The position numbers and the translations under genes were made by a program. DNA of 64,000 bases from Cephalotus follicularis. Lineage: Eukaryota; Streptophyta; Magnoliopsida; Oxalidales; Cephalotaceae. Positions within the stretch are counted from its first letter, which is position 1. Each line of letters begins with the position of its first letter. The stretch is from the NCBI GenBank assembly GCA_001972305.1, contig BDDD01001576.1:124001-188000 (forward strand), given 5' to 3'. Under the pieces are notes generated by a model. It had not been told where the DNA came from. It searched no databases and saw only the letters and a program-made list of their open reading frames with translations. Positions 9,550 through 61,200 of this stretch are shown here, in pieces.

Positions 9550-9560
9550 TGGTATCAGAA
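9550..9560 (+). promoter_or_regulatory. Gy2 primer-binding site
   Basis: TGGTATCAGAA two bases after the LTR end, complementary to initiator tRNA-Met except at its 3' edge. Confidence 0.85.
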
Positions 9561-9717
9561 AATAGGTTTTGTTCCTTAGAAGACCTAACTAGGTTTGACC
9601 TATGAGATTGGGTAGACTGTGGGTTAGGACTTTTTCGTTATGGTCTTTTTTATATGTCATTTGTTTCGGCTTTCTGATTCTTTTTGTCTTTATCTTGTCC
9701 TGGTTTCTGCTGCTTAG

Positions 9718-34599: not shown

Positions 34600-37426
34600 T
34601 GTAATGCCCTAGTTCTCCGTGTGTAAATTTTCGGGCTTTTAATTTGTTTGTTTAGTAGTCTGCCTATTTTGTTTTGGTCTATGTGTTTTTGGGCTGACTG
34701 ATACCAGCCATCGCCTTTTAGAGTAACTGTTAGAATGTGTTAATGAATAAGTAAAGTTTATTTTATTATATCCTATTTTTATTACAAATCATTTTTTATT
34801 ATAATTTTATTGTATTTAAAACAAAATCTCATAATTTAATTCTCTTCTCTCTCTCATATCACCCAATTCCGTTTTTATCTCTTCTTCCTCTCCATATTCC
34901 GTATGTCTCTCCCTTTCATAACCCTCACCTGATTCTCTCCCTTTTCCCCTCAAATTCTCCCAAATCTTCTCTTCTTTTCCTTATCCCAAACGATATCATC
35001 TCTCTTTTCTGTTTAAGTTAGCCACCAACCCTGTTAGGTCTATATCATCATCTCTTTTGGTTTTGGAAAACACAGTGTCTTGCAAGCTGTTGGATTCTTT
35101 GAGTTTGGTTTGCCGTGTTGTCTCTACAATGAGGTTTGTTCTTCATAGTTTGGTTTAAGGATTGTTTTGCTTGATATGCATAACAATGGCAGGCTTTGAA
35201 TCTGTGCGTTTTTCCCTTCTCTTTTTCTTTTCCTGTTGAGCTGTTGTGTAAGCTTTGGAATTTGTTGTGTTCCTTCTACAGTTTTTGTATTGGCATTGCA
35301 GGTTAGTTATCTTTTTTAGTTGTGATGGTTCGTCATGTTTTGGTTATGAATCCGTTGTATGTTTATACAGGCTGTTAGATTGTCATTTTTTATTCTTGCC
35401 ACTCTATGCTTTGTCATTGTTTTTGAGTCTGCTAAACAGCCTTTAGGTGTCTTGTATAGGTTGTAATCTGGTTTTAACATTAGTGTTGGTATTTCGACAG
35501 TAATCTGGCTATATATATAGGTATGCAATTCATTAGAACTGATCACTCTCTTTAAGTTTAGCCACTGTTCACATACACATTTTTAATTCTGTGTTCTTTT
35601 TCTATTTTAATACCACATAGAGTCTTATTTAAATGGTTGAGATCCTCTGGTAATGTGATATCCAGGTTTTGACAATAAAAAATGGCATAGGATTGTTAGA
35701 CTTGTGTGTTCTGGCGTCCAGAACAGTCGGCTGTTTTCATGAACAATCGGCTATTAGGCATTGGGTAGTCGGCTATCTTCCTGATCAGTCAGCTGCTATG
35801 CCTTGGACAGTCGACTGAACCCCTGTCCCAGTCTGCTGGTTGCAGTTCTGTTTGTGTAGTCAACTGGCCATGTTGGGTAGTCGGCTACCAGGCTTCGAAA
35901 AGTTGACTGGAGTCCTGTTACAGTCGCCTGGTGAGTGCAGGAAATTTCTGTTTTCAAATTTCTTTATCCGTTTGTTCTTCTGTATGATCGGGGTCCGTTT
36001 TAAACACCGTTATACTTCTGATTTGATGTACGTAATTGTTACAAGTCCTTATATGCACAATTTTATATTTTATTGATTTTTGTGCTACCGAATGTGCAGT
36101 TTAGAAATTGTCTATCTTTTCATGAGATTATTCTGTGATCGCGTAAGGTACGAATACTATCGTTTTTTTGGCTATCTTAATATGATTTTATTGAAACAAT
36201 TCAGCTTTACTTTTTTTATTAATGTACGAATATTTCTTGTTATCTTCTAATGGTGTTGAAAAGGAATTTTTCGTTTTAGGATATTTGGTTCTATTTGAAT
36301 AAAATATGTTTTATTTCTTTATGAATAAAGTTAAATAATTACTGATTTTATATTTGAGCATGACTTTCATTATCGGAAGTTTGTTAATTAAACGGGTATG
36401 ACTTCCACCATCGGAAATATGCTGATTTTGATTAAATAAACATGACTTTTACTTTCGAAAGTATGTTAACTTTTGGATATATATATGATTATGATTTTGG
36501 ATATGTTCAGAAATTGGTTGGAAAATATGCTTATGTTTTGAATTGTTTTTGAATAAAACAATGTTTTAGCATAATCACATACAGAGAAAAACTTACTTAC
36601 GAGGTCTCATAGGCATGTTCTTTGGCATGGAGGACATGACACCTACCGTGGCGGTGTGATCGGTCTATTGTGTCTCTCTTTATATATATCCTGAGGGTAG
36701 GGTATGGATACTTTTAAGGCGTATGAGTCGACTCTAGTTATTATCGGATTTAGATTTTGGGATTGATTGTGTAGTGTTGTACACGTCTTTCCGTTTGGCA
36801 TGTGTGCCTCGCGAACCCCTTGCACTTATATATTTGTACATTAGATCTCTATATGGAATTACGAAAATCGGATAAAGTTATGATTTGTGAAATTATGTTA
36901 TTCGGAAAATTGTGATATTATGTTTTTCATAAAGCTATGAAGATAACATAACTGTTTTATTTAAATATTCTGCTTTGTCCTTTAAAGAATATTTAACTTT
37001 GTTATTTTCTGATTCTAAAGTTCATATATTTTGTTTACCGTCTACTGTTTTATTTTCCTTATCCGTACTGAGGTTTGCTTAGCCGCATTTTTGTTTCGAT
37101 GCGGCAGGTTATTAGGAGCATCGGGGCAATGTGTGATGAGTGATGTCCACCTATGTCTGAGGATCATCTAGGAGTTTGGTCTGTTTATGTTTTTGTTGTC
37201 TTTTGGTCATGTTAGACCCTGTCTTTTGGAAAAATGTTATGCTTTTCAGATTATGATTTTTGTTTATGTTAAAAGTTTCATACTATGTTTTCAGATTATG
37301 AAATGTTGTTGGATTATGTTTAGACCACCACAAATTTTGTATAAGGATAAGTTTATGCTTGAGTTCATGTTTAGATGTATTCTGTATTATGACCTCTAAG
37401 GGCTCCCACCCTTCGGGGGTGTTACA
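34600..37426 (+). repeat. Gy2 3' LTR
   Basis: TGTAATGCCC to GGGTGTTACA, followed by the duplicated TTGCT. It is the partner of 6717-9547. The TATA candidate is at 35509-35521, the GTCGAC-core array at 35724-35936, the GAGTCGACTC palindrome at 36725-36734, and the ATCGGAAG repeats at about 36358-36470. Confidence 0.95.
35724..35936 (+). repeat. GTCGAC-core word array, Gy2 3' LTR
   Basis: About ten words such as CAGTCGGCTG, CAATCGGCTA, AGTCGGCTAC, CAGTCGACTG and CAGTCGCCTGG, at 15-25 base spacing. More CG forms survive here than in the 5' LTR array at 7820-8036. Confidence 0.75.
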
Positions 37427-41657: not shown

Positions 41658-42823
41658 TGTCACACCCCGTTTTCATATATGACACTTAGGTCGTGGCAAT
41701 TTAACATATATCAATATCCAGCTTATATAAAATACAAAAAAATTAAAACTTTCCCAGCACTTATAACATCGCGGAAGCATTCAAGATATAAGCTGAAACG
41801 TAACATGCATCCCATACTACATGTTACTCAAATACAACATTCCATTGTTAATTGCCCTCAACAGAGCATGATAAAAACATTATTCATTCGATACATAAAA
41901 CTTTATCCGTACAGAAATGCATCATAATACGATAAACATTGTTCCAAGGGTTACAATAACAGTTTAACAAACTCTAACAGGAAAATACAAATCCATCAGA
42001 TAACATTATTACAACTTCATTCTTCTCCAAGCTTGTCCATGTCAGTCCCACTGCATCAATATGAAATTGTAGGGGGTTAGCCTTTGTCCTCGCTCGGCTA
42101 AGTAGAGAAGATATATGTACAATTCAGGGTCAATAATAATCAATGTCATGAATGGATGCATAGTAATGCATATATACTAATAGTACAGATGCAACCCTAT
42201 CAGGGCTACATCAACACAAACCAGCAATCATGTCATTAAAGTACCAGGAAATTCAATCAGGATGTACAAGAGCGTCGCCAACTCCTGGCCCCAACGTCGC
42301 ACTCCATACTTCACGCATATATCCAAGCAGGGCGTCAATGCTTCCTCTAAGCGTCGACGTTCATCATCAAACCAGTACGTGTTCTTCACTTGACAGGTCT
42401 AAGCGTCGACGCTTCCATCGTGAGCGTCGACGGTTATGCAATTCAGAAACATCATCTTCCACGCTTAACGAGATACCATGGAAAATAAATCAAGGGCACA
42501 TGCATTCCAATTCAATATTCACTCAATATTCAACATGCATGGCAGGTTATCACTTAACCATAACCATGGCATCATATCAACAATTCACAGTCCATGAAAC
42601 CATACATTTCGTCAATGATAAAACACTATTCTTGAACTCAAATATGTAAGTATAAATCCCCTACCTTTGGTTCCAAGTTAGGAATATGAAAGTCCATCTC
42701 TTTTAGTCCGAACAGTAGCCCCTTGAGCTTCCCAGGTTCGGCCACAGTAGCTCCAAGTTAGATATTCAAGTCCCAGCTTCCAAGCTTCAAGTTTGAACCA
42801 GGTTCAACAATAGAGGAATGTCC

Positions 42824-43429: not shown

Positions 43430-43765
43430 TGTAATGTCCCCGACCCGAGCCCGCTAATTGGTCAAAGCGAACTACAAGGATTGGTTGCGTTACGTGGGGT
43501 GAACCGTTACATCCTTTAGCACTATTGTCTAAAGCTAATTTACATCATAAATCTCATACATTTCAACATAATACATAGCCTTGAATACTACCTTTAAACA
43601 TTCTCATCTGATCTAAAGATGTCATCAACCATAGCATTCTTATACATTTACACTGGATCATCATATAATACAGTGGAAAACATTGTCTTATTACATATCA
43701 GAGCATATTATGCAAACACTATTGCCTAGTACATGTCCTTTGTTGGCCTTTGCCACCCCATAAAT
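43430..43765 (-). repeat. Gy6: start of a gypsy-like LTR
   Basis: TGTAATGTCCCCGACCCG at the left edge looks like the inverted end of a gypsy LTR (the complement ends GGGGACATTACA). About 336 bp of AT-rich non-coding sequence follow up to the Co4 LTR. The rest may lie beyond the window on the far side of Co4. No second copy or PBS is seen here. Confidence 0.5.
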
Positions 43766-45002
43766 TGTCTTAACATGTGTTATTTCGATGATTAACAAAC
43801 ATGTAATAATTGTATGCATAATTTTCATCAATTCATATACTCACTTGATTTAATTCCCAAAGTTGTGCAAAGGTTATTTCTGCAGATATAGGCTAAAACA
43901 GTCGACTGCCCAGGTTGGACAGCCGACTGTTTGGGTTGAGTAGCCGACTGCTTGGATTAAACAGCCGACTGGTTCTTGTAGGAATCCCATCAACTGCAAG
44001 TACATTCCATACCAGCCGACTGCATCAGGGGAGCAGCCGACTGCCAAGACAAAACAGCCGACTGCCAAGGAGGTCCTGTCGACTGTCAAGTGGTGTCAAT
44101 ATGGCAGTAGGTTTTTGAACTCAATCCCACCTCTACCAGCCGACTGAAGTAGGACACCAGCTGACAGTCAAGGCTCACCAGCTGACTGTCAACATCTCCA
44201 GCCGACTATCAATGAAATGTGCAAAAATGGCAGTAGCTTTTTGGAAGTCCAATCCACCTCAACCAGCCGACTGAAACAGAGCATCAGCCGATTGTCCATG
44301 AGAAACAACCAACTGTACAGAGGAAGCAGCCGACTACCTTCACCAACGGCTACATTTAAAATACGCACCATCAACTCCAGCTGACTACCGAGGATATCCA
44401 GCCGACTGGATTATGCCAGACATTCAAAAATAGATCCGTTAGAGCACATGTTTATAAGCCAAAGTGGAGCATTTTCCAAATCACTTCAAGCACTCAAGTT
44501 GAAAAATCATTCATGGAAACTCAAGCTACATTCTAAACACTCTCCACACCCAAAGAGATTATATTGAAGCAATTTCACATATTACAAAGCCTTCACTTTT
44601 TACATTCTCTATTACTTGAAGCTTTGTTCAATTTGAGCTTATTTGAAAACAAATTCGTTGTGAAATTGTAAACCTTCAAACACTATACACATCTTGTAAA
44701 CAAGAGAGGTTGTCTCTTGTATATCTCGGAAGGAGCAACTTTGTATTTGCTTGGTTGAAGCGAAAGTCATTGAAGCTCGGTTGGAGTTTGAAGCCCGGAT
44801 TGGGGCATACTAGTGAAATACTCAAGGGGAGGCCTTGGGGAGTGGACGTAGGCGGTTTGCCAAACCACTATATATTTGTTTGCAACTCTATCAATCCTAC
44901 ACTCTTTAATTTCCACATTTGAGTGATTGTGTTTAAATTGTTTGTAGGATATTTCTAGTTTAATTTTATAAGTCTATTCACCCCCCCTCTAGACTTCCTA
45001 CA
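43766..45002 (+). repeat. Co4 5' LTR
   Basis: It ends CTTCCTACA three bases before the PBS. The pyrimidine run CACCCCCCCTCTAG near the end and GAGTGGACGTAGGCGG near 44840 are typical of SIRE-type LTRs. The left boundary (TGTCTTAACATG at 43766) is inferred from a TG start and the following ATTTCGATGATTAAC phrase; it is not proven. The array of CAGCCGACTG words at 43897-44410 lies within it. Confidence 0.8.
43897..44410 (+). repeat. CAGCCGACTG word array in Co4 LTR
   Basis: About eighteen occurrences of CAGCCGACTG or one-step variants (CAGTCGACTG, CAGCTGACTG, CAGCCGACTA, CAGCCGATTG), each preceded by variable sequence of about 10-50 bases. Spacing is irregular, commonly 19-22. CAGTCGACTG is a perfect 10-bp palindrome. 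Words between repeats differ, so this is not a simple tandem repeat. Open frames on both strands (43874-44118) are by-products of the array. Confidence 0.92.
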
Positions 45003-45004
45003 AT

Positions 45005-45016
45005 TGGTATCAGAGC
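45005..45016 (+). promoter_or_regulatory. Co4 primer-binding site
   Basis: TGGTATCAGAGC, exact initiator tRNA-Met form. Confidence 0.95.
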
Positions 45017-45074
45017 TTGTGTGCTCATATTTGAAGATTAACATCTTGAGTTAAAGATCATCGCATCCACTAGC

Positions 45075-46844
45075 ATGAATAACAAAACTAGAAACCATGA
45101 TGATGTCTCCGAATTTAAGGTACCATTTTTTCGTGGTGATGATTTTCCCTATTGGAAAAGTCGTATGGAGATTTACCTTAAGTCTAGAGACTTCAAGAAT
45201 TGGCTTAGTGTAAAAAATGGTCCTCACATCCCCATGAAAATAAATGATAAAAATGAATGCGTTGCTAAAACGGATGATGAATGGGATGATGATGACTTCA
45301 AAAAATTGACCATAGATAACAAGGCCCTAAATATTTTGCTTGTGTCTTTAGATAAGGCCGAATATAATCTTGTTAGTATATGCACCTCCGCACATGAAGT
45401 ATGGAAATTGATCATCCTCACCCATGAGAGTACCGAGAAAGTTAAAAATGCCAAACTTGCTTTTTTGAATAGAGACTATGAGTTATTTAAAATGCAACCA
45501 AACGAATCTATCAAAAATTTATATAATCATTTGCTTGATATCACTAATGCTCTTCTTGGCCTTGGAAAGGTATTTGGCAAAGATGAACTCGTTAGGAAAT
45601 TGCTCGGGTGCCTTAACGATGAGTGAGAACCAAAGGTCATGGTAATTGATGAGTCGAAGGACCTAAAGGTTATGGAGATCGAAGAACTTCTTGGCTCCCT
45701 CATGATTCATGAGGTGAAAGTGAACAAGAAATCCGCCAACCTTGTGGAGAAAAAGACTCAAGAAGAAAGGAGGAAGGATATTGCCCTCAAAAGCACTCAC
45801 AAAGAAGAAATCTCGAGTGTTGAGGAGCTAGAAGAAGAAGACTATGTTCTCTTTGCGAAACGATTCACAAAATTCGCAAAGATGAATAAAGCTAGACATT
45901 TTCAAAAGAAAAAACCCCAACAAGGGAGAAGGAAGCAAGATGGATCCTCCTACTTGCTTTGAGTGCAACAAACCGGGACACATTAAGGTGGATTGTCCTC
46001 AATTGAAAAAGAAGAAGATCTTCAAGAAGAAAGCTCTCAAAGCATGGCATTTAAGTGATGATGACTCTTCCAATGATGAAGACACCGAGCAAGTTGCCAA
46101 CCTTTACTTCATGGCATCGACTGACAACGAGGAAAGCGATAATGAGGTAGACGATTCTTACACCTTTGGTGAATTAAAATTTGCTTTTGATGAATTGCTT
46201 ATAGAATTTAAAAAGAAATGCTCTCAATACTCGTCACTTAAGAAAAATGTGGCTAGCATTGAAAATGAAAAGGACTTGCTAGTTATTGAAAATTAGCATT
46301 TGAAAAATGATATTAGCATTGTAGAACATGTAGTTGCTAAAAAGGTTGATTGTGTAGTTAAACCTACTTCGTGTAATAACATTGATCTAGAAAAGGAAGT
46401 AGAATCTCTTAAAGAAAAGAATGTGAACCTAGAGAAATCCTTTAGTAAATTCACATTAGGTAGCAAGAAATTAGAGGAAATGCTTGCTAATCAAAAACCT
46501 TGCCTTGATAAAACCGGTAAAGGATATGCTCCTTTAGAAGTTAAAACAAAATTGAAGAATGCTAAAACAAGACCCTCTCGAACATATTGTCACAAGGTAG
46601 GACATGTAGTTAGCAAATATTCTAAAAGGATTGCTCATTCTCAATTCCATGTCCATTCTCATGCTTGACCTTCCACACATCATCACACTTCTACTTTAAG
46701 CCAAGTATGGGTTCCTAAAGGAACTATAAAACAAAAATGTAACTTTAATGGACCCAATAAACAATGGGTACCAAGATCAAAATCGTTTAACATTTTTGTA
46801 GGTGGAAAGATGTTTGCAAGCAAACCACACGGAGGAAGAACCAT
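45075..46844 (+). pseudogene. gag: Co4 gag
   Basis: Starts MNNKTRNHDDVSEFKVPFFR at 45075 with the conserved FPYWKSRMEIYLKSRD. Gag blocks follow: WDDDDFKKLTIDNKALNILL, EVWKLIILTHESTEKVKNAK and ELFKMQPNESIKNLYNHLLD. A TGA at 45624-45626 interrupts, same frame continuing at 45639. A frameshift near 45940 precedes the knuckle CFECNKPGHIKVDC (45955-45996). A TAG at 46294-46296 and a TGA at 46666-46668 interrupt the downstream coiled, Lys/Glu-rich part. A second, degenerate knuckle (YCHKVGHVVSKYSK) lies near 46586-46627. The sequence then reads SQVWVPKGT until Gy7 inserts at 46844. Confidence 0.9.
46840..46844 (+). repeat. Gy7 target-site duplication, left copy
   Basis: ACCAT, repeated exactly at 61282-61286. 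It interrupts Co4 between gag and protease. Confidence 0.95.
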
Positions 46845-47425
46845 TGTAACGCCCCGAATTTCATAAATAATTATTATGAAATTGGTGCGTGCACGATCGT
46901 AATAAAATCGATAGAGCCCAGAGTACTGAAAAGGCATTATGCATTTAAGCCGTAATCGTCTTAGCTAAGACGGCTAATAAAACCTATTTTTAATGCGCGA
47001 CAATAAAGCCCGAATGCTCGCAATATTATTGCGATTATTTTGGTGGTCGTTTGGATAATTTATGTCGCGATTCGCGGAAAAATGGGGACCCAGACTTTAG
47101 TATTTTACCAGTAAATACTAAAGGGAAGATAAGAGAATAAAGGGAGGGAGAGACCACACACGGGAGCATCACGCGCCCGTGCAAGAAAAGAACAGCAGGC
47201 GCTCTGCGCGCCTACCCAGGGAGAGAAAGCGAGAGAGATTGAGAGAGAGATCGGAGCAGAGGGAGAGAGATCGCGCCGGAGCCAGCTACCGGACAGGGAG
47301 AGCGTGGTGGTCAACCCAGGCACGCCACCGACCGGTAATTTCTTCCCCCTCCTTCTCTTTTTCTTCTTTTTCCTTTCTTCCCTGTCGTTGTTCGCGCAAG
47401 CTACCGGCGTTCCAGGCGCCGTTAG
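46845..47425 (+). repeat. Gy7 5' LTR, left piece
   Basis: It matches 58250-58829 closely. It includes a GC-rich, GA-repeat-rich stretch (47140-47330). It is broken after CCGTTAG by the start of Gy8. The next 1.5 kb of the LTR, present at 58830-60338, is missing from this copy. Overlapping open frames on both strands (47105-47555) are LTR. Confidence 0.92.
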
Positions 47426-47759
47426 TGTAACACCCCCGATTCGGAACCGGGATCACTCCCGATTCGGGATCGGTGTGTCACACAAAACTGAACTAAAAAC
47501 ATATCAAGATTTTAATCTTAATCATCATCAATACATGATGGTTCTAAAAATCTAAAAACATGTATCATCTTGGAACATAAACTGAATCTGACACATAATC
47601 TGAAAACTTTGTAATAAACAAAAAATCACAATACTGTTTAGATAACTAGCCTATACAAGACCATAACACTACTAAAAACATAACCAGATCAAACTCCTAG
47701 ATGATCCTCTGACATAGGGTAACTCTCTCATCACACTTGCCCATGCTGTCCCTGAAAAC
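47426..47759 (-). repeat. Gy8 LTR copy 1, truncated
   Basis: It matches the first 334 bases of the full LTR at 49054 (TGTAACACCCCCGATTCGG) with more differences than copies 2 and 3 have between them. It breaks after CCTGAAAACCT into interior sequence. A possible flank pentamer is GTTAG, with no partner. Confidence 0.88.
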
Positions 47760-48440
47760 CTGCGGAACAATCAGTTATAAATGGGCTCAGCCCTCAGTAA
47801 ACCACAATTTAAGTCCGAATCATCATTCCAATCTCTCAAATGTGAACTCATGCATATCCAATACATCAACATACATCTCATAAGCACTGCCACATGTCGG
47901 CAGGTCGATAACTGAATAAACATATCTCTTAAGTTACCTCTTATACATAACAATTCTCATAAATCTATACAGTTTAGTTTATAAACAAAAGGCACTCTTT
48001 ACAAATCATATAAATAAATCCATATCCATATCCATTATCATAAGCAGTGAATGTGTGCAGAAGTGTAGCAGATATATATAATATCGATAATGTGAGATGC
48101 ATATATAGCATAAAAAAAATGTGAACAATGTCATATCATATCCATAAAAGCCATAACACAACCTATCATCAGTAAATCCACCATATGTCATCATCCAAAG
48201 CTTTTTATCCCATATCAATCCATGACCGTGCTATATCAATTACATTTCATATCCGTTTGCGGTCCATATCCATTTACAATCCATATCCGTTTATGATTCA
48301 TAGCTATATAGCACTCCACTAGGAATCTAGATGTAAACTCCATATGTAGTTAAGGTCGAGGGGTTGAATAAATACATATACTGTCCCACACCAGCATATA
48401 TAAGTAGTTAACTATCACATCGGTCCATTCACAAACTATT

Positions 48441-48620
48441 TTGAGCATCCATGCAATGCCCATCCATTCAATAACAGTCCATCCGATCACTAACCGTTCA
48501 ATAACGACCCATTCGATCACTATCTGATCAATAACGATCCATTCGATCACTGTCCGTTCGATAACGGGTCACACGATCACTATTTGTTCAATAACTGTCC
48601 TAAACGATACGATGCGATCG
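48441..48620 (-). repeat. 30-bp period tandem repeat, Gy8 interior copy 1
   Basis: ATAAC recurs at 48471, 48501, 48531, 48561 and 48591, exactly every 30 bases, within units of the form TTCAATAACGACCCATTCG followed by ATCAC and variable bases. The same array is at 53202-53381, and a related 30-bp array in opposite orientation lies in Gy7 (56371-56610). Confidence 0.9.
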
Positions 48621-49036
48621 ATAACGATACACTAGCATCCATACACTATCCATTCACAATGACCATTCATATTCTATCTCGATCAACCACTATTCGATAC
48701 GGAAGCTATTCAGACAAGACTTATGCCTTTCGGCCCATTCGATCCATCGCTTAGCATTACGGCTCGTTCTGTCGGTCTTTTAATCGCTATACAGTTGGCT
48801 CATATCGTGCATCCTCTTGTGAAACAACTGACTCATCTTCCGGATTAACATTCCTTAGTCGTCAGACTCTTCGTGCCATCAAAAAAACAAAACCGAAACG
48901 GAGTAAAACAAATAGAGTCAGAAAACTGGAATACAAAGGACATATCGAAACGACTCTTAAGGAATAGCCGTAACCCAAATGTCAACCCATCTCACAGGTC
49001 AAACCTAGATAGGTCTTCTAAGGAAAGAAAAACTTA

Positions 49037-49049
49037 TTCTCTGATACCA
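49037..49049 (-). promoter_or_regulatory. Gy8 primer-binding site, copy 1
   Basis: The complement is TGGTATCAGAGAA, four bases from the LTR edge TGTAACACC. The second copy is at 53798-53810. Confidence 0.85.
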
Positions 49050-49053
49050 TAAC

Positions 49054-51776
49054 TGTAACACCCCCGATTCGGAACCGGGATCACTCTCGATTCAGGATCG
49101 GTGTGTCACACAAAACTGAACTAAAAACATATCAAGATTTTAATCTTAATCATCATCAATACGTGGTGGTTCTAAAAATCTAAAAACATGTATCATCTTG
49201 GAACATAAACTGAATCTGAAACATAATCTGAAAACTGTCATAAACCAAAAATCACAATACTGTTTAGATAACTGGCCTATACACGACCATAACACTACTA
49301 AAAACATAACCAGATCAAACTCCTAGATGATCCTCTGACATACGGTAACTCTCTCATCACACTTGCCCATGCTGTCCCTGAAAACCTACCGCATGGAAAA
49401 CAAAAACGTGGCTGAGCAAACCTCAGTACAGATATAGAGTCATAAAATAGTTTATGAACAGTTTATGAAACAAATCAATAACGAAATAACATAAATACGA
49501 ATCAAAACAGATACGAATCAAAACAGAACAGTTACGAAACAAAACAGAACAGTTACGAATCATAACAGATCAGTTACGAATCAAAACAGAACAGTTACGA
49601 AACAAAACAGAACAGTTACGAATCATAACAGATCAGTTACGAATCATAACAGAACGAAACAAAACTGTATCCGAAACAAAGCAGTTTACCAAAACGAAAC
49701 AGTATCCGAAACAAAACAATATCATGCTCAATACAGTATCTGAAACAAACACGATACGATACAAAACATTTCATGAAATGAAACACTCTACGAAACAGAA
49801 TAGAACAATTTACGGAACAAAAGAAAATGGTTTATGAACAGTACGAAACAAACAGCTTACGGAACGAAACAAAACATTAAACGATAAACGATAATTTGAA
49901 AGCAGTAAGATTTCAAAGTAAACACAAAACAGAAATCTTAAGCAATAAATTAGTTGAAACGTTCTTTGAAGTCACATATGAATTTTCATAAAAATCAAAT
50001 CCATAACTTTCAACACGTATGACAAACCTTTCAAAACATAAGTTCCATACTGAGCCACATAACATATCACATAACATAAATTTGGCAAGGGAGTAGCTAA
50101 TTCCACATGCCCACTAGAATTGAAGTGTACGACATTACACAGTCAATTCTCACATAACACATATCCGATCACACATCGGATCACATATCTGATCACATCT
50201 CAGATCACATAAACTAGAATCGATTCATACGCCTCTATCATACATAGCGGATCCACAAATCCACCTCATAGGATTTGTTCATATACTTAGAGACGTCATA
50301 GTCTGATCACACTGCTACGGAAGTGTCACGTCCCCGTGCCAGGCCTACGGTGTGCCTATGGTATGCCCCATAGGTGGGTACAATACTCAGTATTCATTTC
50401 AAAAATATTGATTTATAAAAATCAATTTAAAATCACATAAATTATGTTTTCACAAAACATATCGAAAAACCGCTCACAACGGTATCATAACATACATTTC
50501 ATAACATATCGTATCATTTCATAATCAGAAATCAACTCATTTATTTCCACCATAAAAGAGATGATCATAACATAACATATCATACCGTATCGTAGCATAA
50601 AAATAAAGTCAGGAACATTTAAATTCATAAAATGTCAAAAACCGACTTTATTTTCGAAACATGTCAAAACCATAAAACATTTCCAAGTTCATAAACGAAG
50701 AAGCATAGCAAAACTGTTTTTAGTTCGAAATTTCAGATAGCCAAGGAACAGAAAATCCGTACATATCCATTAGGCAATAAAACGGGTTTTATTCAATCAA
50801 AAACCGATCGATGTTAACCAAGAAAGGGAATTCATACCAAATACAGAATCTGAAATTATCTCAAGTAGAATCAGAAGGATAGCCAAGAAAGGGAATCCAT
50901 ACCAAATACAGAATCTGAAATTATCTTAATAAAATCAGAAGGATATCAAAGAAAGAAGGACATCCGTACTTCATTTACTAAAACAAAACCGAATTTAACC
51001 CAACAATACCGAAGGAGATATCAAGGAACGAAACATGTCTGTCACGCGTCGCCAGTCAGACGCACTGAGGGTCCGATCTGGAGAGTTTGAGGTCGGTGAT
51101 CACGAATCCATGGCGCGTTTGCCATGAAACCGCCGCGTTTGGCCGGAACAGACGCCTTTGACCGTTGTTGACTATGTCGCCGATCTGCTTTTTCAGCATC
51201 GCCAAGGGTCGAGGCTGGTCGGGTTCGCTTCCTGTCGTCGCTAGGATGCCGAATATGTCCTTGGCTTGTCGTGCCGATCACCGGAGCGGGAGAATCGACG
51301 CCAAACAGGTCCGGGAGAGAGAAGACGTCGCGCATGCCGTTGGAGACGTCGGCCGATGCAGGGGTTGGGTGCGGTGGACTCAGGACGTTGCGAGGGTTCG
51401 ACCGGTGTCTTTGCCGGCGCCATATCGGTGCCGACGGTGATGGCAGAGGGTGAGAAGGGAGAGAGAACGAGAGAGAGAGAGGTTGGCCGGGAGAGAGAGA
51501 GAGAAACAATTTTTTTGACATAAAACTAGGGTTTTTGACTTCTAAAAATGCTGAAAATGGGTTTTAACACAAAAAATAAAAAGCCAAAAATTATTTTTTT
51601 ATCTATTCATAGACTTAATATCAAAACCCACTAGGCTAAGGCCAAAACCCGCTTAGCCTAGCCAAAAGCAAAACAAACCAAAAACGGGCAGTCCACAAAC
51701 CGAAAAAAAAATCGACAGCCCACATAAAATAGCTTAAAAAGCCCGAAAATTCTATACGAAAAAACAGGATATTACA
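49054..51776 (-). repeat. Gy8 LTR copy 2, full length
   Basis: TGTAACACCCCC to GGATATTACA, 2723 bp. It contains a 21-bp period array at 49510-49660, AT-rich middle sequence, and a GC-rich, (GA)n-bearing segment at 51030-51530. The segment gives open frames on both strands (for example 51042-51521 on -), but no domain is recognisable. The right edge is followed by a polypurine tract. Confidence 0.9.
49510..49660 (+). repeat. 21-bp tandem repeat in Gy8 LTR
   Basis: GTTACGAA starts at 49531, 49552, 49573, 49594, 49615 and 49636: exactly 21-base steps. Units alternate between AAACAAAACAGAACA and ATCATAACAGATCA types. The array is repeated at 54271-54421. Less regular CGAAACAAAAC words continue to about 49870. 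Confidence 0.92.
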
Positions 51777-51793
51777 TTTCCACCCCCCTTAAA
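51777..51793 (-). promoter_or_regulatory. Gy8 polypurine tract
   Basis: The complement is TTTAAGGGGGGTGGAAA directly before the LTR TGTAAT. It supports LTR copy 2 acting as the 3' LTR for the interior to its right. Confidence 0.85.
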
Positions 51794-53797
51794 AAGATTT
51801 CGTCCCGAAATCTAAACAACTACTAACCTGAAGCAAACAGATTATCTCAACGGAACACACCATATCGTATCAGCGAAAACCTCAAACAATATGTAAAAAC
51901 AGTATGGATAACCATTACAAACCATACCGTTAGGATTTCCCAAAAATTGGGCATGATGTATTCGTTTATCGGACTCCATGCCACCTGATAAACCACAGTT
52001 TATATGTTTGGAGATCAATTCTCATATCTCATCATAATCTATATATTGGGGTTCAACCCGCACCAGACTACATCACAACTAAATCAAATATACCATTTGC
52101 ACGCGAAGGACAGTCCTTTCAATACTCTCAAAGATTGGCTTAATCATATCCAATAATATCATAACCATCCAAAAGATAATCATGTCAAATAAATAATCAA
52201 TTGAGTACATTCTAACTCTTATAATCTCCCAAAAATTGGGCATGTAGTATTCGTTTATCGGACATATGCCCCCTGNNNNNNNNNNNNNNNNNNNNNNNNN
52301 NNNNNNNNNNNNNNNNNNNNNNNNNNNNNNNNNNNNNNNNNNNNNNNNNNNNNNNNNNNNNNNNNNNNNNNNNNNNNNNNNNNNNNNNNNNNNNNNNNNN
52401 NNNNNNNNNNNNNNNNNNNNNNNNNNNNNNNNNNNNNNNNNNNNNNNNNNNNNNNNNNNNNNNNNNNNNNNNNNNNNNNNNNNNNNNNNNNNNNNNNNNN
52501 NNNNNNNNNNNNNNNNNNNNNNNNNNNNNNNNNNNTTATAAATGGGCTCAGCCCTCAGTAAACCACAATTTAAGTCTGAATCATCATTCCAATCTCTCAA
52601 GTATGAACCCATGCATATCCAATACATCCACATACATCTCATAAGCACTGCCACATGTCGGCAGGTCGATAACTGAATAAACATATCTCTTAAGTTACCT
52701 CTTATACATAACAATTCTCATAAATCTATACAGTTTAGTTTATAAACAAAAGGCACTCTTTACAAATCATATAAATAAATCCATATCCATATCCATTATC
52801 ATAAGCAGTGAATGTGTGCAGAAGTGTAGCAGATATATATAATATCGATAATGTGAGATGCATATATAGCATAAAAAAAATGTGAACAATGTCATATCAT
52901 ATCCATAAAAGCCATAACACAACCTATCATCAGTAAATCCACCATATGTCATCATCCAAAGCTTTTTATCCCATATCAATCCATGACCGTGCTATATCAA
53001 TTACATTTCATATCCGTTTGCGGTCCATATCCATTTACAATCCATATCCGTTTATGATTCATAGCTATATAGCACTCCACTAGGAATCTAGATGTAAACT
53101 CCATATGTAGTTAAGGTCGAGGGGTTGAATAAATACATATACTGTCCCACACCAGCATATATAAGTAGTTAACTATCACATCGGTCCATTCACAAACTAT
53201 TTTGAGCATCCATGCAATGCCCATCCATTCAATAACAGTCCATCCGATCACTAACCGTTCAATAACGACCCATTCGATCACTATCTGATCAATAACGATC
53301 CATTCGATCACTGTCCGTTCGATAACGGGTCACACGATCACTATTTGTTCAATAACTGTCCTAAACGATACGATGCGATCGATAACGATACACTAGCATC
53401 CATACACTATCCATTCACAATGACCATTCATATTCTATCTCGATCAACCACTATTCGATACGGAAGCTATTCAGACAAGACTTATGCCTTTCGGCCCATT
53501 CGATCCATCGCTTAGCATTACGGCTCGTTCTGTCGGTCTTTTAATCGCTATACAGTTGGCTCATATCGTGCATCCTCTTGTGAAACAACTGACTCATCTT
53601 CCGGATTAACATTCCTTAGTCGTCAGACTCTTCGTGCCATCAAAAAAACAAAACCGAAACGGAGTAAAACAAATAGAGTCAGAAAACTGGAATACAAAGG
53701 ACATATCGAAACGACTCTTAAGGAATAGCCGTAACCCAAATGTCAACCCATCTCACAGGTCAAACCTAGATAGGTCTTCTAAGGAAAGAAAAACTTA
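51794..53797 (-). other. Gy8 interior, no intact gene
   Basis: About 2 kb including the gap. The region 51960-52090 is the complement of the Gy7 interior near 57320-57450 (TTTATCAGGTGGCATGGAGT on the Gy7 strand). No gag, protease, RT or integrase frame is open. The long frame apparently crossing 52079-52714 exists only because it passes through Ns. Confidence 0.82.
52276..52535. other. assembly gap (260 N)
   Basis: A run of 260 unknown bases. In the homologous Gy7 interior (about 57560-57625, opposite strand) the flanking sequences are only some 60 bases apart, so the gap length is not necessarily real. Sequence right of the gap begins where the 4761-offset duplication begins. Confidence 1.
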
Positions 53798-54626
53798 TTC
53801 TCTGATACCATAACTGTAACACCCCCGATTCGGAACCGGGATCACTCTCGATTCAGGATCGGTGTGTCACACAAAACTGAACTAAAAACATATCAAGATT
53901 TTAATCTTAATCATCATCAATACGTGGTGGTTCTAAAAATCTAAAAACATGTATCATCTTGGAACATAAACTGAATCTGAAACATAATCTGAAAACTGTC
54001 ATAAACCAAAAATCACAATACTGTTTAGATAACTGGCCTATACACGACCATAACACTACTAAAAACATAACCAGATCAAACTCCTAGATGATCCTCTGAC
54101 ATACGGTAACTCTCTCATCACACTTGCCCATGCTGTCCCTGAAAACCTACCGCATGGAAAACAAAAACGTGGCTGAGCAAACCTCAGTACAGATATAGAG
54201 TCATAAAATAGTTTATGAACAGTTTATGAAACAAATCAATAACGAAATAACATAAATACGAATCAAAACAGATACGAATCAAAACAGAACAGTTACGAAA
54301 CAAAACAGAACAGTTACGAATCATAACAGATCAGTTACGAATCAAAACAGAACAGTTACGAAACAAAACAGAACAGTTACGAATCATAACAGATCAGTTA
54401 CGAATCATAACAGAACGAAACAAAACTGTATCCGAAACAAAGCAGTTTACCAAAACGAAACAGTATCCGAAACAAAACAATATCATGCTCAATACAGTAT
54501 CTGAAACAAACACGATACGATACAAAACATTTCATGAAACGAAACACTCTACGAAACAGAATAGAACAATTTACGGAACAGAAGAAAATGGTTTATGAAC
54601 AGTATGAAACAAATAGCTTACGGAAT
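52536..54626 (+). repeat. duplicated segment, copy 2
   Basis: Near-identical to 47775-49865. It includes the 30-bp array at 53202-53381, the PBS at 53798-53810, the LTR start at 53815 and the 21-bp array at 54271-54421. It ends at about 54625 in CTTACGGAA, where Gy7 LTR sequence resumes. Confidence 0.93.
53815..54625 (-). repeat. Gy8 LTR copy 3, truncated
   Basis: The first ~811 bases of the Gy8 LTR, differing from copy 2 at only a few positions (for example ATGAAACG against ATGAAATG, GTATGAAAC against GTACGAAAC). It is truncated where it meets the Gy7 LTR. Confidence 0.9.
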
Positions 54627-55556
54627 TAATTTTGATAGGAAAGTATTATTTCCAGTACTTTATAAACTACTTGGAAACGATTTGAAAGGAATTAATTTGT
54701 TGATTGTGATTGATGCCGTACTGGCTGGGGTGACGGAGTGTCACTGATGGATGGTGGCGGGGTGTTCTCCTAGGTGCCAGGAGATGGCCAGGGACGCCCA
54801 AGTACAATGTTACCTGACACATAGTGCGGGTAGCACAGGTTACCATGTTTGCTGAACACAGCGTGCGAGCATTCATGAGTTTGATTTGTTGCCTTACTTC
54901 GTGACCCGGGAGTCGGGGGCCAGAGTAAGAGTACGACGTCGGGGCCAGGAGATGGCGGCGCTCTTCGTACCAATTCGTTTGGATTGATTTTGTCCTTTGA
55001 GACATGATTGATGATTTGTTGGTTGTAGCCATTTGGCATGTTTGCACCTCTTGGCATATATGTATATACATATGTTTGTGTACGTGTGGTGATATATATA
55101 TATATATTGCATCATGAGTGCATTCATTTCATGACATTCATTATCACTGACCTTGAATTACATTTATGATTTAGCTGAGTGAGGACAAAGGCTAACCCCC
55201 TACTATTGCAGATTGATGCAGTGACCTGGATATCGACTGTGCGCGGCGAATCTGTGGGGAGATGGAGTTTTGTTATTAAATAAATGTTGTAACATGTATT
55301 GAGACCAGTATTATTTTGTATTTATGTATCATGGTGTTGAACAACTTTTGATCACGCCCCGTTTGAGGGCTTTTTGACAATGGTTCAATGATGTTAGTTG
55401 TTGGAATCGTGTGGTATGGGACACATGATTCAGGTTGTTGTTCAGCTTATCATTAAATGCTTCCGCAGTTGTTGATGGGATTGATGTTTTTTATTTTATC
55501 GTATTTTTATAAGCTGAATATTTGTGTTAAATTGCCATGACTTATGGGGTGTGACA
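54626..55556 (+). repeat. Gy7 5' LTR, right piece
   Basis: It matches 60339-61281 from TTTTGATA onward and ends GGGGTGTGACA before the PBS. A (TA)n run at 55092-55107 is a TATA candidate, conserved at 60801-60818. The module TTAGCTGAGTGAGGACAAAG follows at about 55172. Small frames at 54667-55127 recur in the 3' LTR and have no domain. Confidence 0.92.
55092..55107 (+). promoter_or_regulatory. candidate TATA element, Gy7 LTR
   Basis: ATATATATATATATAT about 80 bases upstream of the CTGAGTGAGGAC module. The same arrangement is in the 3' LTR (60801-60818) and, less perfectly, in Gy3 and Gy4. Promoter role is inferred. Confidence 0.45.
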
Positions 55557-55560
55557 ACAG

Positions 55561-55572
55561 TGGTATCAGAGC
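55561..55572 (+). promoter_or_regulatory. Gy7 primer-binding site
   Basis: TGGTATCAGAGC, exact initiator tRNA-Met form, four bases after the LTR end. Confidence 0.95.
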
Positions 55573-55720
55573 TTATATTCCTTTTATAAGCTATCGCTGG
55601 GATACTATCCTCGGCAACTAAATAATTGGATGAAGGAACTTGTCCAGGCTAATAGGTTCCTTGGCAATTAACAATTGTTTCCTTGAGATGATTAATCATC
55701 ATCTTCCTTAAAGGAAACAA

Positions 55721-55930
55721 AATGGATGGAAGGATAAAACGCAGAAGGCCTTGAGCCGCTAATGGAAATGTTCCTAAGGAAGTAAATGACAGAACGGACC
55801 TTATGAGCCGTATAGCGGATTACTTGCAGTAGTAGATGGCTGCGGATGCTGCAAACATGGTGGATACGCATCGATTGTACGCACAAGCATAGCCAAGGCA
55901 CGTGGTTCCTGACCATGTTGTGCGGCATGA
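55721..55930 (+). pseudogene. gag: Gy7 vestigial gag N-terminus
   Basis: From the ATG at 55722 the frame reads MDGRIKRRRP, a TGA, then LMSRIADYLQ, two stops (TAG TAG), MAADAANMVDTHRLYAQA, a stop and PRHVVPDHVVRHD. This parallels the Gy4 and Gy5 gag starts (MDRRR..., DYFQQ, YYAQ..PRHRAPDH). The following gag core and zinc knuckle are absent. It is a relic showing descent from a chromovirus like Gy4. Confidence 0.8.
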
Positions 55931-56370
55931 TAGAAAACGTTTTGGAAGAGCCTGATATGAACGTAGATACCTAGAGTGATGACGTCGACGCCTAAAGGAT
56001 GGTGTTGATGCCAATAGCCCTGTTTCGGTGAAACTGCCCAGTTTCGCATGGATCTCTATTCCGATTGAGATTAGGCTAATGTTTAAGCCTCCAAAATAGT
56101 GCCTAAGGCTGCCAAGCAGTCTAGATTTGCCAGGAAGGCAGACCTCAAGGAGGCAGACCTCCCAAAATCCTTCGGGATACATCGAAAGAAGTGACAGTGA
56201 GGGCTATGGACTGTATAGCGGTTGAGTGACCGACCGAATGAGCCATAGTGGCTAAGAGATCGATCGAAGGAGCCGAAAGGCATAAGTGTTGTCAGAAAAG
56301 TTTCCGTATCGAATATTCGTTGATCGGAATAGAATATGGGTGGTCATTGCGAATGGCTAGTGTATTGTTA
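55931..56370 (+). other. Gy7 interior, non-coding
   Basis: Starts after the gag vestige. It has GACGTCGACGCC/GTTGATGCC words at 55979-56012 and a short duplicated phrase (AGGCAGACCTC, twice, about 56140-56160). The part from 56190 matches the complement of Gy8 interior near 48700-48780. No domain. Confidence 0.75.
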
Positions 56371-56610
56371 TCGATCGTGTTGCGATCGTATGAATCGTTA
56401 TTGAGCGTATAGTGATCGTTTGAACCGTTGTTGAGCGGTTAGTGATCGTATGAATCGTTATTGGAGGGATAGTGATCGTTTGAACCGTTGTTGAGCGGTT
56501 AGCGATCGTATGAATTGTTATCGAACGGTTAGTAATCGAACGTATCGTTGTTGAATGGATAGTGACCGAATGGGTCGTTATTGATCGGATAGTGGTCGAG
56601 TGGACTGTTA
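56371..56610 (+). repeat. 30-bp period tandem repeat, Gy7 interior
   Basis: About eight units of the form GATCGTATGAATCGTTATTG followed by about ten more bases. Line-by-line alignment shows an exact 30-base period, with type alternation (GTATGAATCGTTATT/GTTTGAACCGTTGTT every 60). Since 30 is a multiple of three, the - strand has an open frame of 121 codons (56357-56722) made of a degenerate Ser/Thr/Ile decapeptide repeat. This is probably a by-product. Confidence 0.93.
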
Positions 56611-58010
56611 TCTGATGGATGGGCATTGCACGTATGCTCGAAATAGATTGCGAGTGAACGGATATTGACCGTAAACGGCTATGGACCGTAAACGAACGTG
56701 AAATGCAATGGATAGAGCACAATCATGGATTGGCACAGGACGAAAGGCCCCGGATGACGGTATATGGTAGAGTTACTGATGACGTATTGTGTTATGACTT
56801 GTATAAATGTGAAATGACATTGTTCACATTGCTTATGCTATGTACGCATCTCATATGATTGACATTATATACACATCTGCTACACCTCTACACTCATTTA
56901 TTACTTATGTGTATTATACACAGCCATTGGCTGCTGATCTGTTTTGTTGAAATGAAGTGGGTCAGGTTTAAGTTCAGGTTCAGGTGGACGCGTCAGTGAT
57001 TAGACAGTCCAAGTGCAGGGTAAGAATCTATATTCTTTGATCTATGGTTGTATGAGGTATTTGATGTAGATGGACAGTGTATTTACATTATATGACTTGC
57101 CGACTTGTGGCAGTGCGTGAATATAAATGTGTGTTGATGTATTGGACCTGCCGGCATGTGGCAGAGCATCATTTGATCGATGTATGATATTATTGGATAT
57201 GATCAGACCCATCATTTGAGGTTTTGACGCGATTATACTTCGCATGCGTATGGTATTATTGGATATGATCAAACCCATCATTGAGGGTATTGAAAGGATT
57301 GTCCTCTGCATGCAAATGATATACTGGATTTAGTTGTGATGTAGTCTGGTGTGGGCAGAGCCCCCAGCATATAGATTGTGATGAGATATGAGGGTTAAAC
57401 TCCAAACACATATAAACTGTGGTTTATCAGGTGGCATGGAGTCCGATAAACGAATGCTTCATGCCGAAATTTCGAGAGATCTTAAGAGTTTGATTTTAAT
57501 GGATTCATCACTTGAGATGTTAGAATGATGATTCGGATCTAAATTGTGGTTTTTGAGGGCTGAGCCCAATTGTGAACTGTTGGTTCCTCCTTCGGGAGTG
57601 TGAATGTATAAATTGTGTTTTCCTTACAGGGGGCATAGTCCTGTAAACGAATACTTCATGCCCGATTTTCGGGAGATTATAAGAGTTGAAATGTATTCAA
57701 CTGATTATTCCACTGGCAGGATGTGATTGTTTAGAGTTCTAGCTTATAGCACTTTTGAGTATGATTGACGTATGATTGTTGCGAAACTGTGCTGGATATA
57801 CCAGTGTAGGATCCTTACTGTTGGGAGATTGAAAGTGATTAACTGAATAAGTGCTAATTGGAGTTATTTGGAGTTACGGAATAATAATGGGTAAGATGTT
57901 GGGTTCTTGGAAACCTAGTGATATGGATATAGTATGGTTACAGATTGAACGGATACAGATTGTGCGGTTATGGAACGTGCGGTCATAAGCCATATGGTTA
58001 TGGATCGTAT
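56611..58010 (+). other. Gy7 interior, non-coding
   Basis: About 1.4 kb with no domain. It matches the complement of Gy8 interior sequence in several blocks (for example CTGCCGACATGTGGC-like phrases near 57095-57170, TGAGGGCTGAGCCCA near 57555). It includes a small duplication with phrases TTGGATATGATCA(G/A)ACCCAT at about 57190-57280. Confidence 0.75.
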
Positions 58011-58181
58011 GCTTATGAATTGTTTGATGTGGATGAGCTGTGGTCGCAAGCCTATCGCTCCAGTTTCTCCGTACATCCGGTGATTAGCAAGATGTATCGA
58101 GATCTGAAGCTCGACATTGGTGGAAGTGTGATGGTAATACCATGGGTTTGGAAAGCCACATGGAATGAGAGGAAGAAGTGA
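58011..58181 (+). pseudogene. pol: Gy7 integrase vestige
   Basis: A short piece reading DELWSQAYRSSFSVHPVISK, then MYRDLK. It matches the HHCC region of gypsy integrase (in Gy4: GAHKSQYNIHPGSTKIYQDM). The second histidine and the KMYRDL block are kept. No core domain follows. It is the only pol trace in Gy7 and lies just before the polypurine tract. Confidence 0.6.
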
Positions 58182-58236
58182 AGCCATTCTACCGTCACAT
58201 GTTTAATCTAGGGAATCTCGGGACGAGATTTCTTTA

Positions 58237-58249
58237 AGGAGGGGAGGAT
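58237..58249 (+). promoter_or_regulatory. Gy7 polypurine tract
   Basis: AAGGAGGGGAGGA directly before the 3' LTR TGTAACGCC. Confidence 0.92.
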
Positions 58250-61200
58250 GTAACGCCCCGAATTTCATAAATAATTATTATGAAATTGGTGCGTGTACGA
58301 TCGTAATAAAATCGATAGAGCCCGGAGGGCTGAAAAGGCATTACGCATTTAAGCCATAATCGTGTTAGCTAAGACGGCTAATAAAACCTATTTTTAATGC
58401 GTGACAATAAAGCCCAAATGCTTGCAATATTATTGCGATTATTTTTGTGGTCGTTTGGATAATTTATGTCGCGATTCGCGGAAAAATCGGGACCCAGACT
58501 TTAGTATTTTACCAGTAAATACAAAAGGGAAGCTAAGAGAATAAAGGGAGGGAGAGACCACACACGGGCGCATCACGCGCTCATGGAAGAAAAGAACAGC
58601 AGGCGCTTTGCGCGCCTGCCCAGGGAGAGAAAGCGAGAGAGATTGAGAGAGAGATCGGAGCAGAGGGAGAGAGATCACGCCGGAGCCAGCTACCGGACCG
58701 GGAGAGCGCGGTGGTCAACCAAGGCACGCCACCGACCGGTAATCTCTTCCTCCTCCTTCTCTTTTTCTTCTTTTTCCTTTCTTCCCCGTCGTTGTTCGCG
58801 CAAGCTGCCGGCGTTCCCGGTGCCATTAGCGTCGCGGGTGGCTTGGGTTTTGGTGTAGATGGCTAATTCTTGCCATTTTGACCATCGGTGAGGCATGATT
58901 CGGCCGAAATCACTAGGCTGAGTCGACTCAGCGAGTCGACTCACGGCCGCCCGAGACCGCGCTTTTGGCACCGAGTCTCGGCAAGTCACGGGCATCGGTG
59001 TGTAGGACTGGTGAATGTGTGGCATTTTTGGGTGGTGATCGGACCTGTGGAGGTCCGGCGAGTTGACTCTGTGAGTCACGACTCACTACCGGCCGTGGCG
59101 CGGCATTCGGCGCTGGTTCCCGGTGAGTCTTGACCGGTTTTGAGTAGACCGTTCAATGTGGAACCCGTTGGTGGGTGTTTCACCGCCTGGTTGTGTCGGT
59201 CGGATTCAGGCCGGCGTTTCGGCGACGAAAATGTTTTGTGTGTCAAACATAACGGAAATGTGTCGTATGTGCAGTGTGTGAGTGGCCATTGGATTTGGCG
59301 TTGAGGAACTGACCAATCGACAAGAACCGGCTTCGGTTCAACGGTTTTCGAAAAGGTTTGACAAATGAACGTGCAGCTCGACTGTATGCTGTAACAGGTA
59401 GGGGATTTTATAATTGTGGTTTATGTTCAGTTATAATGGATATTCATAAATGAATTGCATGCAATAGACTGTGATATGAGCATGAATGTGTGTTGTTGTT
59501 GATGAATGCTATGAATTGATTTGGATTGGTTGAGAATTGCATGTGTTTAAACTGCTGTTTTGACCTACAGATGTAAATCCAGTCGACTGCCAAGGCGGGC
59601 AGCCGACTGGCGAGCTGGAATAGCCGGCTGTTCAGTGTGAACAGCTGACTACTCAATGACAAATAGCCGACTGGACGTAAGAACCAGTCGACTGTTCATA
59701 CGTTTAATGGAAAACACCTGCAGAAGGTTGAGTAGTCGACTACCGAGAGAGGGCAGCCGACTGGATGGGGAAAGCAGCCGACTGTCAAAAGGAGACAGCC
59801 AACTGTTAAGAGAGGCAGCCGATTGTGGATAGCACAGCCGACTGTTTGGGATGACAGTAGACTGTCCACGTGTCACTTCACCCGGATTCCCTGAGATGGC
59901 AATGCTGGGGTGAATGGCGATGTAGAAGATACGTACTGTTCACGAAACAGCCGACTGTCTTGAGGAGACAACCGACTGTTATGCGATCAGCCGACTGTCA
60001 AATATGAGACGGCCGACTGCTAAGGGAGGCAGCCGACTGCCAAATCGGGGACCGCTGACTGTTTAAAGAAAACAGTCGACTGTCATGAGGAAACAGCCGA
60101 CTGTCATGAAGCGGCAGCCGACTGTTGAGAGACTGACTTGCACGTTGAGCATATGTTTTGCATTGCATTTTGATGTGTAATGAATTGGTGATTGGAATGT
60201 GATTGATTCTAAAGTGTTTTTATTCATTTTAGAAACGTGTTCATGATTTTATATAAATCATTATTTGATATGAAAATATATATTTTGATAAATGTATGTT
60301 TTCAACGGATTGAAACATGGTTTCAAAGATGCAATACGTTTTGATATAAATGTATTATTTCCAGTACTTTATAAACTAGTTGGAAACGATTTGAAAGGAA
60401 TTGATTTGTTGATTGTGATTGATGCCGTACTGGCTGGGGTGACGGAGTGTCACTGATGGCTGGTGGCGAGATGTTCTCCTAGGTGCCAGGAGATGGCTAA
60501 GGACGCCCAAGTACAATGTTACCTTACACATAGTGCGGGTGGCACGGGTTACCATGTTTGCTGAACATAGCGTGCGAGCATTCATGAGTTTGATTTGTTG
60601 CCTTACTTCGTGACCCGGGAGTCGGGGGCTGGAGTAAGAGTACGACGTCGGGGCCAGGAGATGGCGGCGCTCTTCGTACCGATTCGTTTGGATTGATTTT
60701 GTCCTTTGAGACATGATTGATGATTTGTTGGTTGTAGCCACTTGGCATGGTTGCACCTTTTGGCATATATGTATACACATATGTATATGTACATGTGGCG
60801 ATATATATATATATATATTGCATCATGAGTGCATTCATTTCGTGACATTCATTATCACTGACCTTGAATTACATTTATGATTTAGCTGAGTGAGGACAAA
60901 GGCTAACCCCCTACTATTGCAGATTGATGCAGTGACCTGGATATCGACCGTGCGCGATGAATCTGTGGGGAGATGGAGTTTTTTTATTAAATAAATGTTG
61001 TAACATGTATTGAGACCAGTATTATTTTGTATTTATGTATCATGGTGTTGAACAACTTTTGATCACACCTCGTTTGAGGGCTTTTTAACAATGGTTCAAT
61101 GATGTTAGTTGTTGGAATCGTGTGGTATGGGACACATGATTCAAGTTGTTGTTCAGCTTATCATTAAATGCTTTCACAGTTGTTGATGGGATTGATGTTT

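Follow-up and report, generated by a model that had tools for sequence, protein, structure and literature searches.

Why should one palindromic word recur in arrays within the long terminal repeats (LTRs) of retrotransposon families that are unrelated to each other, and what reads it? The question arises from a 64,000-nucleotide stretch of the Cephalotus follicularis genome (contig BDDD01001576.1, positions 124,001 to 188,000; hereafter the window, whose own coordinates are used below), in which a preliminary description reported irregular arrays of the 10-mer CAGYCGRCTG in an LTR of the copia element Co4 and in the gypsy LTRs of Gy2 and Gy7. Our results show that the observation is real and much larger than first noted, that the spacing of the words is fixed at two helical turns, and that words of the same class lie upstream of T32, an additional gene that SIRE-like copia elements carry and that belongs to the Pfam family PF20167 (Transposase_32).

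Within the window, 44 words with at most one mismatch were found against 2.4 expected, a count that none of 100 shuffles reached. At the same threshold, and with 500 dinucleotide shuffles of each segment, the Co4 LTR holds 15 words (shuffle mean 0.07), the Gy7 segment 19 (0.18) and the two Gy2 LTRs 4 and 5 (0.04 and 0.05), all far above shuffled sequence. Allowing two mismatches, the earlier figures of about 18 words in Co4 and about 22 in Gy7 were recovered exactly; the ten or so given for each Gy2 LTR hold for one copy, but the older copy has only 7, two of which overlap (Table 1). The arrays are not irregular as had been stated, since most steps measure 20-22 bp, with longer gaps near 28, 42, 50, 63 and 73 bp.

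The whole genome (1,577,397,061 bases in 9746 contigs) was then searched, using the same pattern read backwards as the control. CAGYCGRCTG words with 11 bases between them, and hence a step of exactly 21 bp, give 88,790 pairs compared with 246 for the reversed pattern, and pairs at 23-25 bp and at 31-32 bp number only 352 and 837, respectively. The rarity of the latter rules out helical phasing at every turn. Pairs of the form CAGTCGACTG at 15-44 bp occur 64,790 times against 209 in the control. In 20 samples of 10 kb (200 kb), spread over the contigs although not strictly random, CAGTCGACTG is the commonest non-simple 10-mer and makes up 39 of the 63 exact CAGYCGRCTG words of all forms; the samples contain 121 words with at most one mismatch, and arrays of at least four words are present in 7 of the 20.

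CAGYCGRCTG (class A) is not alone in this organization. Class B (GACRTCGAYGTC) and class D (RCGTYRACGY, which includes GCGTCGACGC, class C) present the same dyad with other arms and form similarly spaced arrays in other LTR elements. Genome-wide, class B pairs within 16-45 bp number 20,411 (control, 66), and within 15-44 bp there are 52,233 class D pairs (66) and 4,799 class C pairs (7); the 200 kb of samples hold 34 exact class D words. Palindromic 10-mers of at least three different bases were also scanned with at most one mismatch in 264 kb (samples plus window), and at least two pairs at 19-23 bp were recovered exclusively for TCGA-cored 10-mers and CAGCCGGCTG: 59 pairs for CAGTCGACTG (background 0.5), 9 for GCGTCGACGC (0.8) and 2 for ACGTCGACGT, with 8 and 3 for CAGCCGGCTG and TAGTCGACTA, near forms of CAGTCGACTG. 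Among the first places listed for each class (contig C1 for A and D, C1-C3 for B, C1-C10 for C; copies belonging to one family are counted separately, and C places are included in D as well), steps of 19-22 bp account for 57/86 (A), 20/50 (B), 39/50 (C) and 41/64 (D), and steps of 40-43 bp for 17/86, 28/50, 4/50 and 9/64, the longer peak being the stronger in class B; class A has another 12/86 at 27-28 bp. At two places on contig C1 (1769783-1770058 and 1806615-1806771), class B words also recur at a longer, higher-order period, about 102-112 bp, which may reflect a larger tandem unit.

The conservation of the words points to their being bound. When six copia LTRs were compared, with the words defined in one sequence and scored in the other, identity was 0.895 for the words, 0.702 for the spacers and 0.694 for the 3' rest, and the words exceeded the spacers in all 30 ordered comparisons; two of the six (loci L033 and L036; L-numbers are our labels of genome loci) belong to the series L029-L038, whose members were selected from listed exact word pairs. 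The words are conserved and the spacers are not, so mere tandem duplication does not explain the arrays, as the preliminary description had argued. Its suggestion of a site for a dimeric protein can be kept in part: a protein-binding array is well supported by this conservation and the two-turn spacing, and a dimer would fit the dyad symmetry of the word.

Grouped by the similarity of each array together with its flanks, the 32 arrays in the loci examined form 11 clusters (L002, L003, L004, L006 and L008 overlap other loci and were dropped here and from most later counts). The clusters have different layouts and do not represent recent copies of a single homologous segment passed among elements. 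Among the nine copia LTR arrays of the Co4 cluster, seven have a TATA match starting 42-44 bp past the last word on the sense side, those without it being two copies in L011; among gypsy arrays, few have a TATA match nearby. The spacers diverge widely, as first described, but the motif ACAGGG (on either strand) recurs in those of 6 of the 11 clusters, compared with a maximum of 5 in 200 letter shuffles, and is common to copia and gypsy arrays, so some units may share descent. This suggests that array units were exchanged between copia and gypsy elements at least once and then re-duplicated. The alternative first posed, exchange or independent selection, is therefore too simple, given a shared spacer motif within spacers that otherwise differ widely. 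A four-word layout of 21-(26 to 28)-21 is fixed in the arrays of L021 (2101-2178 and 9222-9299), L032, L034, L035 and L038, and a ATGCGTGTT-like sequence occupies its middle gap in several of the spacers listed.

A first look at the genome gave 13,073 T32 candidates, of which 150 were scored, those listed being above the Pfam cut-off. Copia gag precedes the gene in L048/L076 (identified by Pfam) and in L005 (by eye), and a copia RNase H-like/pol stretch does so in L011 and L017 (by eye; the L017 piece is unnamed by Pfam). The L017 copy scores 47.8 bits against the PF20167 cut-off of 45; the two L011 pieces (25.7 and 32 bits) are under it, and both align to L017. PF20167 is the sole Pfam family matched by all nine members scanned, a second one matching 2/9 with a best E value of 0.14. 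Among the 12 D-clade copies (282 aligned codons), the ratio of nonsynonymous to synonymous substitution rates (dN/dS) has a median of 0.11 and a mean of 0.29, with 47/66 pairs below 0.5 and 4/66 above 1, at a median dS of 1.23, near saturation; the coding sequence is under constraint. A-clade proteins begin with a basic stretch, MAPKRQKG, and by eye the T32 C-termini resemble coiled coils.

T32 loci were chosen on protein match alone: 14 of 150 listed for A1, 12 of 150 listed for A2, and 12 of the D clade picked, mainly for long open frames, from the best 150 of the 13,073 candidates. CAGYCGRCTG (at most one mismatch) is present upstream of the gene in 14/14 A1 and 12/12 A2 loci, with 2-6 words each, and exact RCGTYRACGY in 0/26; in the D clade, exact RCGTYRACGY is present in 12/12 and CAGYCGRCTG in 0/12, with 63 exact RCGTYRACGY words in 12 loci of about 1.65 kb each. 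In the six elements looked at, a second array has the same word class as that upstream of T32, class A at T32 and in an LTR-type array (L011, L017, L005 with L007, L033) and class D at T32 and in a downstream array in a putative LTR (L047 with L074, L048 with L075). In the D loci, a TATA match is always present (12/12), at positions 560-660 ahead of the ATG near 745; in A2 it follows the last word by 20 bp in 6/12, and in L011 by 21 bp. At about 180-380 in the region upstream of T32, the D-clade loci L042, L043, L045 and L047 have in common a stretch rich in CGGTCCGG-like repeats, which by eye resembles a piece of a further inserted element, perhaps hAT-like.

Because word class follows T32 clade, T32 is the best candidate for the binder, and the simplest account would be that each word class has a single regulator, which acts on both T32 and the LTR. 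The words would be the sites of a sequence-specific DNA-binding protein, probably a dimer, set two helical turns apart in promoter regions. T32, carried by SIRE-like copia elements behind gag or pol, would be the likeliest such protein, binding the array in its own LTR and that upstream of its own gene, in a positive loop that would switch the element on or shield it from silencing. Words and T32 would diverge together, one clade with CAGYCGRCTG and another with RCGTYRACGY, and gypsy elements lacking T32 but carrying the words would use T32 in trans. The promoter upstream of T32, the binding and dimerisation of its product, the activating or anti-silencing effect and the exploitation by gypsy elements are what we infer from this arrangement. 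This account, in which T32 binds the words in LTRs and 5' of its own gene, as an activator or anti-silencer, has in our judgement slightly less than an even chance of being correct; the entire circuit, in which clades and words co-diversified and gypsy elements acquired arrays and parasitise T32, we consider a little less likely still.

Several results weigh against assigning the words to T32. No recognised DNA-binding domain was found in T32, either with Pfam (nine members) or in a search of PDB by sequence, which gave no match. The agreement between clades and words is essentially one contrast of two clades, so the T32 loci are not independent, and no T32 clade was found for class B despite its many pairs. 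One class B word is present in 5/12 A2 loci, so word classes can mix; single GACATCGACG-type words stand among A words in L005 (1560-1577) and, near 268-288, in L077, L078, L086, L087 and L088. No TATA match lies within 60 bp past the words in any of the 14 A1 loci, and it is absent in 6/12 A2 loci, so for these loci the internal promoter stays putative and a TATA box downstream of T32 words is rejected as a general rule; TTTAAA or TTTTAA occurs 18-40 bp past the words in 13/14 A1 loci. Conservation upstream of T32 must also be interpreted cautiously: identity in A1 is 0.927 for words, 0.829 for spacers and 0.872 for the upstream 150 columns, and in D it is 0.745 for words against 0.686 for spacers (gaps 2% vs 21%), but the word columns were defined from these same alignments, which biases toward the words, and among D-clade loci the coding region, at 0.775, surpasses the words in identity.

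The words in front of T32 could simply be sites for a host factor. A host transcription factor may bind the words, the same activator having been recruited by several retrotransposon lineages and by the region upstream of T32; we regard this as rather unlikely, although it fares better than the other alternatives. LTRs are known to recruit host factors, as in the heat-responsive ONSEN, T32 lacks a recognised DNA-binding domain, and CAGCCGACTG, of the form commoner in Co4 and Gy7, contains CCGAC, the core of the DREB/CBF (DRE/CRT) site. Nevertheless, the 39 of 63 sampled words that read CAGTCGACTG have no CCGAC on either strand, and a DREB/CBF array was rejected as the main interpretation. The two T32 clades pair with two different words, and the spacing peak is common to the word classes, so that several host factors with identical geometry would be required. 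Dense arrays in the promoter regions of many LTR elements would also be accounted for if retrotransposons were recognised by a host protein acting as silencer or insulator, comparable to the KRAB zinc fingers of mammals or to Su(Hw) at the gypsy insulator, but this appears improbable: sites of this kind should be lost, yet in the copia LTRs the words outlast both the spacers and the remaining sequence, and they are kept despite containing CG and CHG sites, which are prone to mutation once methylated. The fixed unit length and the ACAGGG common to some spacers across clusters agree with neutral tandem duplication, in which a 21-bp unit would have been spread by recombination with no binding function; however, this is hard to reconcile with word columns that decay more slowly than spacers in copia LTRs, with the near absence of 23-25 bp spacing and with the same spacing peak in different words, and we give it very little credence. 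A role in RNA, as hairpins or dimer-forming palindromes of the transcript, is scarcely plausible even though palindromes can pair with each other and one array lies directly behind a 5' LTR (L021, 2953-3107), since the Co4 sense strand carries CAGCCGACTG, so that C-A mismatches arise in place of the G-U pairs expected from CAGTCGGCTG, and the TATA match lies downstream of most of the copia LTR arrays.

Returning to T32 as the binder, the preliminary statement that no such module is described needs qualifying, as the target arrays of VANC proteins in the VANDAL transposons of Arabidopsis are close in logic. The available parts of these reports describe words forming variable repeats, also in the unrelated transposable element AT9TSD1 (PMC5735166), with AGTTGTCC and AGTTGTAC for VANC6 (PMC5735166; PMC10398659). 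As in that system, the arrays of short words vary and lie in non-coding parts of the element, and the words are also found in unrelated elements, AT9TSD1 there and gypsy here; the pairing of related proteins with different words may have a counterpart here in A (26/26) and D (12/12), two clades only. In contrast, VANDALs are DNA transposons, and the present carriers are LTR retrotransposons with a protein of another family; rather than a VANC homologue of a Mu-like VANDAL element, T32 is a PF20167 member that copia gag adjoins in L076. The present words are palindromes set at a constant two turns, and binding and demethylation have been shown for VANC, whereas T32 is a candidate binder.

Other comparisons, likewise drawn from the available parts of the sources, are with accessory genes of retroelements. 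Foamy-virus Tas is needed for, or binds, LTR and internal promoters (PMC8670036, PMC4929722), and T32 resembles it as an accessory gene with upstream sites common to the LTR; the counterpart of its internal promoter would be the TATA match (D 12/12, A2 6/12, A1 0/14). However, Tas is an animal retrovirus protein that acts on both promoters, and T32 is likened to it by layout. In sunflower, an extra open reading frame (ORF) of PF20167 with predicted nuclear localisation is found in Athila, a gypsy element in contrast to the SIRE-like copia here (PMC11728184); this predicted signal fits T32 as a putative regulator, and what is available of that article describes no upstream words or targets. In the accessible portions of the literature, extra ORFs acting against silencing like VANCs are raised as an open question (PMC11728184, PMC12844716), and the function of such ORFs is left open (PMC11728184, PMC7264820, PMC12844716). 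Grande gene23 is also an accessory retrotransposon gene, there driven by a promoter of its own and encoding a nuclear protein, but it is antisense and the part of the report available describes no target words (PMC7264820). MAIN/MAIL1 are similar as proteins derived from transposable elements and tied to a promoter motif, 'DOWN', in the genes needing them (PMC7156037), but they are host proteins of another kind, and the Pfam scan gave no plant-mobile-domain match for T32. Literature searches for extra ORFs with SIRE and for extra-ORF transactivators found nothing, a search for CAGTCGACTG gave matches whose listed titles suggest primers or constructs, and one for 'putative plant transposon protein' gave association studies.

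Table 1. Word arrays and associated features of the window.
Feature	Position	Strand	Basis
5' LTR of SIRE-like copia element Co4, TGTTGG...CTACA	43741..45002	+	LTR ends located; 75.8% identity to L011 over 1304 bp
18 CAGYCGRCTG-like words (at most 2 mismatches), mostly 21 bp steps, 5' of TATA match	43899..44408	+	
TATA-like box TTTATAAGCC, start about 43 bp past last word of Co4 array	44451..44460	+	
Primer binding site TGGTATCAGAGC of Co4	45005..45016	+	sequence
Co4 copia gag (Retrotran_gag_2)	45042..45623	+	Pfam, E 3.1e-18
22 CAGYCGRCTG-like words (at most 2 mismatches), Gy7 (putative gypsy LTR)	59580..60124	+	
Decayed array, 7 words (at most 2 mismatches), Gy2 repeat 6717-9547	7831..8037	+	
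10 words (at most 2 mismatches), CAGTCGGCTG orientation, Gy2 repeat 34600-37426	35724..35930	+	
9 exact RCGTYRACGY words, downstream of gypsy-type protease ORF	11388..12546	.	
6 exact RCGTYRACGY words (some GCGTCGACGC) in presumed gypsy LTR, 2.8-kb repeat 13185-15981	14503..15787	.	
3 exact RCGTYRACGY words, partner repeat 19086-21830	20361..20724	.	
Three AGCGTCGACGCT words (at most 1 mismatch)	42350..42434	.	

Judged by its copia gag, primer binding site and LTR ends, all of which are present, Co4 is a SIRE-like copia element, presumably of the lineage named SIRE/Maximus, and we take its primer binding site to be of the initiator-tRNA-Met type. Gy2 is a pair of 2.8-kb repeats, 90% identical and taken as LTRs. 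Only parts of the Gy7 segment (58249-61257) are duplicated in the window, and the second copy has no array; Gy7 before its array (58249-59463) is 84.6% identical to L013 (603-1847), a stretch that stops before the array position. The Gy7 array may thus be a later gain or loss. Elements of the window other than the CAGYCGRCTG carriers hold class D and class C words. Outside the window, the gypsy element L021 (gag, protease and RNase H) has an array in its LTR (1900-2885 and 9021-10000) and a second one behind the 5' LTR, and the gypsy loci L009 and L024 hold GACRTCGAYGTC-type words. No T32 was found in the window or in L021, and no relative of it in viral and prokaryote contigs, the viral contigs holding 9 stretches with a word pair. 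An Rfam scan of the window gave no match.

The word arrays offer a concrete, testable target for the extra ORFs of PF20167 and predict which elements each T32 clade would control. If the T32 circuit is true, the commonest complex 10-mer in samples of this 1.6-Gb genome would be a parasite's binding site, many of its retrotransposons would be regulated by proteins from a subset of them, with unrelated elements cheating, and the transactivator circuits of retroviruses would have a plant counterpart.

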